Below are positions 5,183 through 29,034 of a stretch of 34,102 nt of DNA, in pieces. The translations under genes were made by a program, and so were the position numbers. Within the stretch, counting starts at the first letter, position 1, and the number at the start of each line of letters is the position of its first letter. The DNA is from Gracilibacteraceae bacterium (lineage in GTDB: Bacteria > Bacillota > Desulfitobacteriia > Desulfitobacteriales > Syntrophobotulaceae): positions 1-34,102 of the forward strand of contig JAISEW010000022.1 in assembly GCA_031263945.1 (NCBI GenBank). The letters are read 5' to 3'. The notes below the pieces were generated by a model that worked only from the letters and a program-made list of their open reading frames with translations, ran no database searches and was not told where the DNA came from.

Positions 5183-6037
5183 ATGGGTATGTGGAAAGAA
5201 TCTTATGCCGTAGGTCATGATCTCATCGACAGTCAGCATAAGGAATTGTTTCGCATGACTGATGAACTGACGGCGGTTTTGCGGCGCCAGGACGCGGACA
5301 GCTCGGCGGCTTGCGCGCAGGCGGTGGTTTTTTTGAAGAATTATGTCGTAAAACATTTCGCGGACGAGGAGGCCCTGCAAGCCTCTCTGGGCTACGCCGG
5401 CCTGGAAGCGCACCGCTGCCTGCACCGGGATTTTGTGGCCACGGTGCTGGAATACGAGAGGGCTTTGACTGAGAGCAATTTCGATAATAAAATCGCCCAG
5501 CGCTTCGCGGGCAAACTGATCGGCTGGCTGATCTATCATGTGGTGGGCGAGGACGGAAAAATAACCGGTATGGTTCGTTCCGCCGCTCCCGCCGATAAAT
5601 CACGCTCGGCTTCTTATATCGCCTGTTTTACGGACAGCGCCTGCGAAGTCCTGAGCCAGATGCTGAGTATCGCCGTGGAAATAACACCCGAAACGCCGGC
5701 GCCGCTCAGCGGAAAAAGCGATATCAGCGTCAGCGTCGGCATTGTCGGTGACCGTCCCGGCAGCGCGGAATTCGTGTTCCCGCTGGTCACAGCCCTGCAT
5801 ATCGTTCAAAGCCTGACCATGATGCCGGCGGTCGATTTCGGCGATATGGCGGATTCCGCCCTGCGCGAAATCGCCAACATCATCAGCGGCAACGCCGCTT
5901 CCCGGATCGCGGAAACCGGTTGCGCCTGCGACATCACCCCGCCCAAACTGTACCGGGGCCAGCGCCCCGTCGCCTCCGACGGCAAGGTGGTCAGATGTGA
6001 TCTAGGCTCGCTGTCCGTCTCCATCGCCGCTCCCTGA
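5183..6037 (+). CDS. bacteriohemerythrin fused to a CheX-like phosphatase domain
   Basis: The 284-aa protein has two domains. Residues 1-130 form a hemerythrin with the complete diiron ligand set at canonical spacing: H19 (DSQHKELF), H58 and E62 (KHFADEE), H77 and H81 (EAHRCLH), H119 and D124 (HVVGED). This domain binds O2 reversibly or senses it. Residues about 141-284 resemble CheX/CheC, including the E-x2-N phosphatase signature in LREIANIISGNAAS (E229, N232). It probably senses oxygen or redox and dephosphorylates a response regulator, which is inference. No che or fli genes are present. The start is ATG 5183 with GAGGGGGAG about 9 nt upstream. ATG 5189, giving MWKES, is an alternative. 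Confidence 0.9.
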   Translation: MGMWKESYAVGHDLIDSQHKELFRMTDELTAVLRRQDADSSAACAQAVVFLKNYVVKHFADEEALQASLGYAGLEAHRCLHRDFVATVLEYERALTESNFDNKIAQRFAGKLIGWLIYHVVGEDGKITGMVRSAAPADKSRSASYIACFTDSACEVLSQMLSIAVEITPETPAPLSGKSDISVSVGIVGDRPGSAEFVFPLVTALHIVQSLTMMPAVDFGDMADSALREIANIISGNAASRIAETGCACDITPPKLYRGQRPVASDGKVVRCDLGSLSVSIAAP

Positions 6038-6054: not shown

Positions 6055-6609
6055 ATGGATGACCTGTTTTCACCCGCTTCCTTAATTGTGGCGGAGGGGC
6101 GCGGCGACGCGGAAGCTATCCGCCGCGCCCTCGGAGACGTCGAGGTGCTGTGGACGGAAGGCTTCGGAGTGACGGCTGCTAAACTGGCATATATCGCCAA
6201 AGCCGCGGCGGAGCGGGGCGTCGTCGTTTGCGCCGATCCGGATCACGCGGGAGAAATGATCCGGGCTAAACTTGACCGCCATATCCCCGGGTTGCGGCAT
6301 GTCTATCTGCCGCGCCGGGAAGCGCGCGACTGCCGGGGGCGGGATATCGGCTGGGAATACGCGTCGCCGGCGGCGGTGCGGGCCGCTTTCGGCCGCTTGC
6401 GCCCCGCGCCGGCGTCTGCCTTGGCCCCGGATAGCCTGAGAGAGGCGGATTTACTGGAATTAGGCCTGACCGGCTGTCCGGCGGCGCGGGAACGCCGCCG
6501 GACAGCCGGTCAGGCTTTGGGGATCGGGGAATGTAACGCCAAACGCTTTTTGGCGCGCGCCAACCGTTTTCGCGTCACACGCCAGGAATTGGAAGCTGTT
6601 TTATTGTAA
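6055..6609 (+). CDS. rnmV: ribonuclease M5 (Toprim-domain 5S rRNA maturase)
   Basis: The 184-aa protein begins with a Toprim domain: VAEGRGD (E14, D18) and ADPDHAGEMIR (D61, D63) supply the acidic metal ligands. This is followed by YLPRREA and GWEYASP, where the family usually has GVEHASP. The C-terminal part DLLELGLTG...ERRRTAGQALGIGECNAKRFL is the characteristic M5 tail. In Bacillus this enzyme trims precursor 5S rRNA at a double-stranded site. It usually sits beside tatD and rsmA/ksgA, but here it follows the hemerythrin gene by 17 nt. The 3' end overlaps the convergent vanY by 9 nt. A perfect 23-bp inverted repeat lies inside the C-terminal coding region. Confidence 0.86.
   Translation: MDDLFSPASLIVAEGRGDAEAIRRALGDVEVLWTEGFGVTAAKLAYIAKAAAERGVVVCADPDHAGEMIRAKLDRHIPGLRHVYLPRREARDCRGRDIGWEYASPAAVRAAFGRLRPAPASALAPDSLREADLLELGLTGCPAARERRRTAGQALGIGECNAKRFLARANRFRVTRQELEAVLL
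6464..6515. repeat. perfect 23-bp inverted repeat with 6-nt loop inside rnmV
   Basis: Left arm 6464-6486 and right arm 6493-6515 are exact reverse complements over 23 bp, separated by CGGGAA. The arms start with GCCTGACCGGCTG and end with CAGCCGGTCAGGC. The peptide spanning the repeat (LGLTG...ALGIG) follows the normal RNase M5 family pattern, so this is not a visible insertion. It is also not a classical terminator, because neither strand has a T-run after the stem. The RNA would form a very stable hairpin in either orientation, including in read-through transcripts from the convergent vanY operon. Confidence 0.95.
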
Positions 6610-7395
6610 ATCCGCTAAATATTCTTCATAGGTCTGACCCGCCTCATACAGAGCCGTCGCCAGTTCCGGGCCAAAATACCGCAGATGCCACGGTTCATAC
6701 ATATACCCCGTGATATCCTCCTTGCCGTTCGGGTAACGCACGACAAAACCGTAGTTATGCGCGTTATCACGGATAAAAGCGTATTCCGGCGTCCGGTCAA
6801 ACGACTGCTCCAGCGCGTAGTTAACAGCGGCGGTGGAGACGTCCATGACCAAACCGGTCTGATGCTCGCTCTCGCCCGGGCGGGCGCTGATACGGTTCGC
6901 TTCTTCCTCGCCGCTGAACCGTCCGACATTATAATTAAAAATTGAAACTTGGGTATTATAGGAGCGGTAACCGGAAACGCCGTAAATATTCAGCCCCGCT
7001 TCTTTGGCCGTCGCGACGAGTTCGGCCAGAGCAACCGCGGCTTCATGGCGCAGCATCCGTTTTTCCACTCTTTCACTGAAGGAAAAAGGAATATCCACAT
7101 ACTCCAGATCCGCCGGGATATAATCTTCGCTCAGATGGCTGTTTTTATTGACCAAAGCGACGATACTGTCTTGATTTTCCGCGATACCCGCCGCCTCCGG
7201 CGATAATATCGGATCGGTCTGCGCTACGACGGCCGGCAGGGGTTCCGCTTCCGCCGGATCTTCCGCCGGCGGCGGCTCTTCCGGCTGGTTTTCCGCCGCT
7301 GGCGGGCCGGCGCAGCCGGTCAGAACTAAAATTACAATAAATGCCATTATTGACAAAAAATATATCACGCTTTGATCCCGCCTGTTTTTCACCAT
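6601..7395 (-). CDS. D-alanyl-D-alanine carboxypeptidase lipoprotein, VanY/LAS family
   Basis: The 264-aa protein has a basic N-terminus, a hydrophobic stretch and a lipobox LTGC (C28), so it is probably a membrane-anchored exported lipoprotein. A Pro/Glu-rich spacer (about 30-60) precedes the peptidase domain. Motifs are SGYRSYNTQ (about 141-149), the zinc motif SEHQTGLVMD (H178, D185) and the EPWHLRY motif (E234, H237). The LAS/VanY family trims the terminal D-Ala from peptidoglycan stem peptides, which fits the adjacent envelope genes. ATG 7395 has GGAGG 5 nt upstream. It is the last gene of the ftsK-rodZ-glyoxalase transcript, 21 nt after the glyoxalase stop. No vancomycin-resistance regulators are present, so a housekeeping wall-remodelling role is likelier than resistance. 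Confidence 0.92.
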   Translation of the reverse strand: MVKNRRDQSVIYFLSIMAFIVILVLTGCAGPPAAENQPEEPPPAEDPAEAEPLPAVVAQTDPILSPEAAGIAENQDSIVALVNKNSHLSEDYIPADLEYVDIPFSFSERVEKRMLRHEAAVALAELVATAKEAGLNIYGVSGYRSYNTQVSIFNYNVGRFSGEEEANRISARPGESEHQTGLVMDVSTAAVNYALEQSFDRTPEYAFIRDNAHNYGFVVRYPNGKEDITGYMYEPWHLRYFGPELATALYEAGQTYEEYLADLQ

Positions 7396-21370: not shown

Positions 21371-21427
21371 AATTTCAGATTGAAAAAACCGTCTCCGGAA
21401 AGAGACGGTTTTTTTCAATCTGAAATT
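21371..21427 (-). terminator. groESL terminator, long near-perfect hairpin
   Basis: Arms 21371-21395 and 21402-21427 pair over 25 bp with one bulged base (six A versus seven T), around a CGGAAA loop. On the minus strand the core ACCGTCTC/GAGACGGT is followed by a T-run, a textbook intrinsic terminator 33 nt after the groEL stop. The symmetric A/T tracts would also work on the plus strand. It is the only clear intrinsic terminator I find in the window. Confidence 0.9.
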
Positions 21428-27990: not shown

Positions 27991-29034
27991 CTATAGAGTT
28001 GCGGCGTCCTCCCGGACGAATTCGTCTATGGCCCGAAAGAGCGCCGGCAGCAGTTCCTCCTCAGGCAATTTGGCCCGTACCCGGCCCCGGACAAAAAACA
28101 CGCCCAGCCCGGTTCCGCCCGCCACGCCAAAGTCCGCTTCCCGCGCTTCGCCCGGCCCGTTGACGGCGCAACCCATCACCGCCACGCTCAGCGGCCGCCG
28201 CAACTCCGGCAGCGCGCCGAGTTTTTCCTCTACCCGCGCCGCCAGACCTTCCACATTGATGCCGGTTCGGGCGCAGGTCGGGCAGCTGACGACTTCCCGC
28301 CGGTTCGGCCGCAATTCCAGCGCGTCCAAAATAGCGCGGGCCACGGGTATTTCCGCCACCGGATCCCCGGTCAGGGAAACGCGAACGGTGTCGCCGATGC
28401 CCGCCGCTAAAAGCGAGCCGATGCCCACCGCCGACTTCACAACGCCGCCGCGCGCCGTGCCGGCTTCCGTCACGCCGATATGCAACGGATGATCCGTTTG
28501 CGCGGCCAGCAGATGATAAGCTTCTATCATCAGCGGGACCCGGGACGCTTTGAGGGAGATCTTCACCTGGTCACAGTTCTCGGCCGCCAGCAATTCCACG
28601 TGAACCATCGCGCTTTCCACCATGCCCCGCGCCGTTACGCCGCCGTGACGAGCCACGATCTCCCGTTCCAACGAACCGGCGTTTACGCCGACGCGGATCG
28701 GGATCCCTCCGTCCCGCGCCGCGCGCGCCACTTCGCGCGCGGCGCGGCGGGAACCGATATTGCTCGGATTAAGACGCAAACCGTGGACGCCCGCGGCTAT
28801 CGCGGCCAGCGCCAGCCGGTGATCAAAATGGATATCGGCAATCAAAGGCAGCGCGCTCTCCCGGCTCAACCGCCTGAGCGCCGCCGCCGCCTCGCTGTCC
28901 GGCACGGCTACGCGGGCTATTTGACAGCCCGCGTCCCGCAAGGCGGCGATCTGGGCCAGCGTACCCGCCACATCCCGGGTGTCGGTATTGGTCATCGATT
29001 GAATGACGATCGGATTATTGCCGCCGACCGGCAC
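27991..29034 (-). CDS. ispG: 4-hydroxy-3-methylbut-2-enyl diphosphate synthase, 5' end irregular
   Basis: IspG (GcpE) converts MEcPP to HMBPP with a 4Fe-4S cluster in the MEP isoprenoid pathway. The frame shows GGNNPIVIQSMTNTDTRD, ADIHFDHRLA, LRLNPSNIG, RVGVNAGS, the cluster ligands SCPTC and MGCAVNGPGEA, and the DFGVAGG end. The track start is GTG 29034 (347 aa). The usual preceding residues, RRTREIRVGS, are encoded just upstream in the same frame, but there is no ATG/GTG/TTG there. An ATG at about 29077 is one base out of frame and stops after two codons. Either initiation is atypical, or a one-base deletion (real or sequencing) sits at the original start. No Shine-Dalgarno is well placed for GTG 29034: AAGGGAG is 15 nt away. 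Confidence 0.93.
   Translation of the reverse strand: MPVGGNNPIVIQSMTNTDTRDVAGTLAQIAALRDAGCQIARVAVPDSEAAAALRRLSRESALPLIADIHFDHRLALAAIAAGVHGLRLNPSNIGSRRAAREVARAARDGGIPIRVGVNAGSLEREIVARHGGVTARGMVESAMVHVELLAAENCDQVKISLKASRVPLMIEAYHLLAAQTDHPLHIGVTEAGTARGGVVKSAVGIGSLLAAGIGDTVRVSLTGDPVAEIPVARAILDALELRPNRREVVSCPTCARTGINVEGLAARVEEKLGALPELRRPLSVAVMGCAVNGPGEAREADFGVAGGTGLGVFFVRGRVRAKLPEEELLPALFRAIDEFVREDAATL

Follow-up and report, generated by a model that had tools for sequence, protein, structure and literature searches.

A perfect 23-bp hairpin in the RNase M5 coding sequence of a Gracilibacteraceae bacterium and its possible origin by template switching

The perfecting of quasi-palindromes by template switching is established (PMC7202029, PMC8604942), and the process homogenises the arms of inverted repeats, nonsynonymous changes included (PMC8604942). 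Perfect stems can be created and maintained in this way, which has been proposed for the stems of RNA (PMC8794818). In hairworm mitochondria, conversion between repeat arms was proposed for palindromes in coding sequence (PMC6649704). In our study, a perfect inverted repeat was found in an intact, conserved coding sequence of a bacterial chromosome, the gene encoding RNase M5 (rnmV).

The rnmV hairpin and its gene

The analysed window was a stretch of 34,102 nucleotides (contig JAISEW010000022.1, positions 1 to 34,102; assembly GCA_031263945.1) from a Gracilibacteraceae bacterium, the genome of which is called G000 here. MAGs of this kind probably come from termite guts. The locus was found to contain the following features:

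6055 to 6609, plus strand: rnmV, RNase M5 of 184 amino acids with Toprim and DUF4093 domains (profile matches)
6464 to 6486, plus strand: 5' arm of the hairpin, codons 137-144, encoding (G)LTGCPAA
6487 to 6492, plus strand: loop of 6 nt, CGGGAA (Arg-Glu)
6493 to 6515, plus strand: 3' arm of the hairpin, codons 147-154, encoding RRRTAGQ(A)
6601 to 7395, minus strand: VanY-family D-Ala-D-Ala carboxypeptidase gene (vanY), convergent to rnmV, overlapping it by 9 nt at 6601-6609

The rnmV reading frame matched DUF4093, Toprim and the TIGR00334 ribonuclease M5 profile, the last with 97.8 bits against a cut-off of 110.65; the score was also under the cut-off in four of the five family relatives tested. 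The convergent overlap of 9 nt agreed with an earlier note made from the sequence alone. The only Rfam match within the window was a tRNA. The reading frame directly upstream of rnmV (5183-6037) matched a hemerythrin domain and a CheC/CheX-like phosphatase. Elsewhere in the window, at 21371-21427, perfect stems (18-bp outer and 13-bp inner) were flanked on both sides by A- and T-runs; this structure looks like a bidirectional intrinsic terminator.

The hairpin at 6464-6515 (codons 137-154) contained 23 Watson-Crick pairs out of 23 around its 6-nt loop, so that the arms were 100% complementary over 23 nt, as the note had described. It forms a GC-rich stem-loop of the kind that belongs to an intrinsic terminator, and its 3' edge lies 94 nt before the end of the rnmV coding sequence. 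Among the perfect hairpins in 521 kb of its own genome it was the longest. The RNA fold was predicted at -59.0 kcal/mol (z = -8.8), a value equalled by 0 of 200 shuffles. When the peptide and the local codon usage were held fixed, the probability of a perfect 23-bp stem was 9.9e-7, and 20,000 synonymous resamplings of the segment stayed at or below 21 pairs.

Distribution of the stem and changes of its arms among relatives

The rnmV gene was present in every one of the 25 family genomes sampled. The number of Watson-Crick pairs in register was 23 in G000, 23 in its closest relative G002 (an upper value that assumes pairing bases at two N positions; the safe lower value is 21), 16 in G001, 11 in G003, 10 in G004 and 4-9 in the others. 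The synonymous-codon null was exceeded by G000, G002 and G001 only, and the full stem was confined to G000 and G002 among the 25; the stem of G001 was imperfect (16/23, P = 0.01 given the G001 peptide). G003, G004 and about 20 further genomes of the family encode the motif in rnmV but lack the stem. G003 carried the same peptide motif without arm symmetry (GLTGVPAARLRRQTIGRA, 11/23 pairs, P = 0.5), a finding that the earlier note had named, together with a lack of RNA ends or processing at the hairpin, as what would refute its reading. Because of this limited distribution, the hairpin is, judged from the alignment, a young feature made from a quasi-palindromic stretch. When codons were resampled, the pairs expected from the peptide were 10-14 in G000 to G003 and 8 in G004; the remaining genomes gave 4-9, typically about 5. 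With the GC-rich codons of the genus, the RNase M5 C-terminal motif GLxG-PAAR-RR--G is by this estimate already a quasi-palindrome, and the stretch is therefore predisposed to become a palindrome.

The number of rnmV codons in the hairpin region equalled that of the relatives in an ungapped protein alignment, so the hairpin was no insertion, in agreement with the note. The view that the arms sit within conserved codons was borne out in one respect, since the codons are in frame and homologous, but Ala151, Gln153 and Cys141 depart from the usual RNase M5 pattern. As several arm residues differ in this way, the arm symmetry has partly shaped the RNase M5 peptide. Before the Gly, where Leu/Val/Ile is usual, G000 has Ala; the idea that this is a cost of the hairpin alone was rejected, since G004, which lacks the stem, also departs there (Thr).

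Codons of one arm face codons of the other in register, so that position 1 pairs with 3 and position 2 with 2. A silent change at a third position therefore has to be matched in the opposite arm by a change at a first position, which in most cases replaces the amino acid. When the partner columns were slid by 1-3, pairing fell from 81% to 20-41%. CGG in G001, G003 and G004 was found to be CAG in G000 and G002 (Arg to Gln), by which a G-U pair became a Watson-Crick pair and the stem was completed. In G002 relative to G000, GGC/GCC was changed to GGT/ACC, a silent change with an Ala to Thr replacement (C-G pair to T-A); the difference of G001 was ACC/GGT versus TCC/GGA, Thr/Ser with a silent change. 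Within the subclade, two pairs thus changed on both sides, each combining one silent change with one replacement. Over the nine pairs CTGACCGGC/GCCGGTCAG, the 3' arm GCCGGTCAG contained 4 changes and the 5' arm CTGACCGGC contained 1, relative to either outgroup (G003 or G004). Over the whole arms, the changes were spread on both sides (4/5 versus G001 and 6/7 versus G003), and a single one-arm event is therefore insufficient.

Coding hairpins in other genes

Three further coding hairpins of G000 served as comparators:

27991 to 29031, minus strand: ispG (GcpE), comparator host gene
28714 to 28727, minus strand: 3' arm (coding sense) of the ispG hairpin, 1/14 positions differing from G001 and G003
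28734 to 28747, minus strand: 5' arm (coding sense) of the ispG hairpin, 6-7/14 positions differing from relatives, fully complementary to the 3' arm in G000
L080:12990-13024: 13-bp coding hairpin in cmk
L100:4270-4304: 13-bp coding hairpin in a fabD-like acyltransferase gene

The ispG hairpin (28714-28747, 14 bp, perfect) recurred unchanged in G002 but was missing from G001, G003 and G004, and its peptide was changed from RQRVRE or RTRVRE to RRAARE by three amino-acid changes. The cmk and fabD hairpins contained 11/13 pairs in G002 and 4-7/13 in the other congeners. The changes of the two arms were 6 versus 1 of 14 in ispG (against G001), 6 versus 2 of 13 in cmk (against G003) and 2 versus 7 of 13 in fabD (against G001), in genes that were 18-22% diverged from the compared congeners. 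In each gene, one arm had hardly changed and the other had become its complement, with encoded amino acids altered as well; the one-arm pattern is clearer here than in rnmV and reads as a footprint of template switching. The comparators were picked for being perfect in G000, and so the one-arm asymmetry alone is only modestly significant. We know of no hairpin requirement shared by the ispG, cmk and fabD genes, which makes arm-to-arm copying the simplest common cause.

Long perfect coding stems exceeded synonymous shuffles, on crude gene calls, in G000 (5 versus 0.75, at least 12 bp), G002 (8 versus 0.85, at least 11 bp) and the distant G007 (7 versus 1.05, at least 11 bp); the excess was not found in the G003 sample. 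The arm-copying process looks general on this account, and not special to the G000 lineage.

Origin of the hairpin and comparison with known systems

The stem is perfect, recent and not inserted. We infer template switching, or quasipalindrome correction, as the mechanism, and mutation of this kind probably produced the young palindrome in the coding sequence of rnmV. The starting state would have been an imperfect quasi-palindromic stem in the GC-rich motif. During replication, the growing strand would fold onto itself, so that one arm serves as template for its partner; repeated events of this kind would have perfected the stem to 23 bp in the common lineage of G000 and G002, with some amino acids altered in the process. 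Single differences arising later would be homogenised, so that both arms change together, and any effect at the RNA level would be a side effect. It counts against this origin that the hairpin persists in two species, that selection on RNA would also give paired changes, and that no parent-offspring pair displays the event, the nearest relative being about 12% diverged from G000 in nucleotides. Nothing found shows that the hairpin regulates RNase M5.

That selection maintains an RNA hairpin where rnmV and vanY converge is a possible but rather unlikely explanation. The hairpin would act as a bidirectional terminator free of a U-tract or as an RNase III site, setting 3' ends and limiting antisense RNA. 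In both G000 and G002 the perfect stem is found together with the convergent overlap, a pattern scan found no terminator-like site near the junction on either strand, the predicted fold is strong (-59 kcal/mol) and the stem is kept by paired changes. However, neither strand contained a U-tract (TTTGGGG and CTAATTCC; tails TTTGGGGATC and CTAATTCCAG), and a terminator at this place would truncate the rnmV message 94 nt short of the end of the coding sequence. G001 has a partial stem, but its vanY adjoins tRNA-like sequence and its rnmV lies elsewhere, on a contig that ends inside the gene. The comparable hairpins of ispG, cmk and fabD are also away from overlapping convergent junctions. The proposal that the hairpin blocks read-through from vanY thus keeps the coincidence of stem and overlap in G000 and G002 but is weakened by the missing U-tract and by the arrangement in G001. 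That the stem was selected as an RNA element at the junction, with amino acids changed to keep the pairing, is likewise doubtful.

That codon choice for a quasi-palindromic peptide produced the stem by chance is very improbable; the peptide alone yields about 14/23 pairs, but 23/23 has a probability of about 1e-6, and the stem is common to a second species and co-varies there.

An assembly or read fold-back artefact is highly improbable as well. The G000 assembly is a draft of 262 contigs, and in G002 rnmV is split over two contigs (the ends of C46 and C87), both of which break just past the hairpin. The contig tails beyond it were error-rich: of 59 bases, 22 disagreed between the two contigs, and at 20 of these the tail had G or C; such tails would fit read failure at a strong hairpin. 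But the conserved RNase M5 C-terminus is encoded through both arms and further, which fold-back would not give, the two G002 contigs gave the stem independently, one from either side, and in G001 the sequence continues through the partial stem. The near arms of G002, GCCTGACCGGTTGT and ACAACCGGTCAGGC, were exact complements; two loop-nearer positions, partners or nearly so, were discordant between the contigs and stand as N in the alignment, in two different pairs. The ends of G002:C46 (L004) and G002:C87 (L008) also exemplify, in a public MAG, an assembly that fails at a strong hairpin.

Feedback, in which RNase M5 would cleave its own mRNA at the hairpin duplex, was proposed by the earlier note and is scarcely credible by the present analysis. 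Its one favourable point is that the gene in which the hairpin lies encodes a ribonuclease active on duplex RNA. RNase M5 recognises the 5S precursor bound to uL18 and not generic duplex, its specificity depending on the 5S fold and uL18. The stem is missing from rnmV across the family, including the congeners G003 and G004 and about 20 others, and 5S-like sequence was not found: a DNA search of its own genome with the hairpin found only the hairpin itself, though the 5S gene is present. As there was no second match, the hairpin bears no resemblance to the 5S rRNA gene.

The in-frame insertion of a mobile palindromic element, as known from Rickettsia, can be dismissed, for although the palindrome is perfect and in frame and the G000 genome has other intergenic palindromic repeats, the ungapped protein alignment already refutes insertion, the further arm copies that the note suggested seeking were absent from the genome at up to 2 mismatches, and phage and plasmid searches gave zero matches. 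No relative of rnmV was found in the viral contigs searched. Near-identical palindromes (ACAGGGAACGGGCGG...) were observed at L081:17158-17194, L081:17545-17583 and L083:17504-17546, which are possibly an intergenic palindromic repeat family of the G000 genome.

Paired substitutions are usually taken as proof of functional RNA. Those of rnmV affect a protein-coding gene at the price of amino-acid replacements, and they occur in a genome that also has one-arm rewriting in three unrelated housekeeping genes. The hairpin is a bacterial example in which arm copying at the DNA level, and not RNA selection, may explain covariation together with several amino-acid replacements.

Among known systems, an intrinsic terminator between convergent genes likewise places a strong GC-rich hairpin near two converging ends, but the rnmV hairpin has no U-tract and lies inside the coding sequence, 94 nt before its end. 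The Rickettsia palindromic elements share a palindrome in frame inside a gene; the rnmV hairpin is neither inserted nor repeated. The RNA stems ascribed to template switching (PMC8794818) are similar in being perfect and in showing paired substitutions from DNA-level copying, but they belong to RNA genes and the present stem is protein-coding. The mitochondrial coding palindromes of Nematomorpha (PMC6649704) are also perfect repeats in functional genes in which both arms encode conserved protein, and the rnmV hairpin falls in 'phase 2' of that paper (codon position 2 pairs with 2); those palindromes are numerous and up to 284 bp long, whereas rnmV is one 23-bp case on a bacterial chromosome. 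Quasipalindrome template-switch mutation in E. coli and yeast (PMC7202029, PMC8604942) likewise turns an imperfect repeat into a perfect one, with the arms homogenised and with clustered, nonsynonymous changes in coding DNA; the rnmV arms differ in being unusually long (23 bp) and common to two species, and the event is reconstructed from comparison. The kind of process is already known, and rnmV is a long, well-placed bacterial example.
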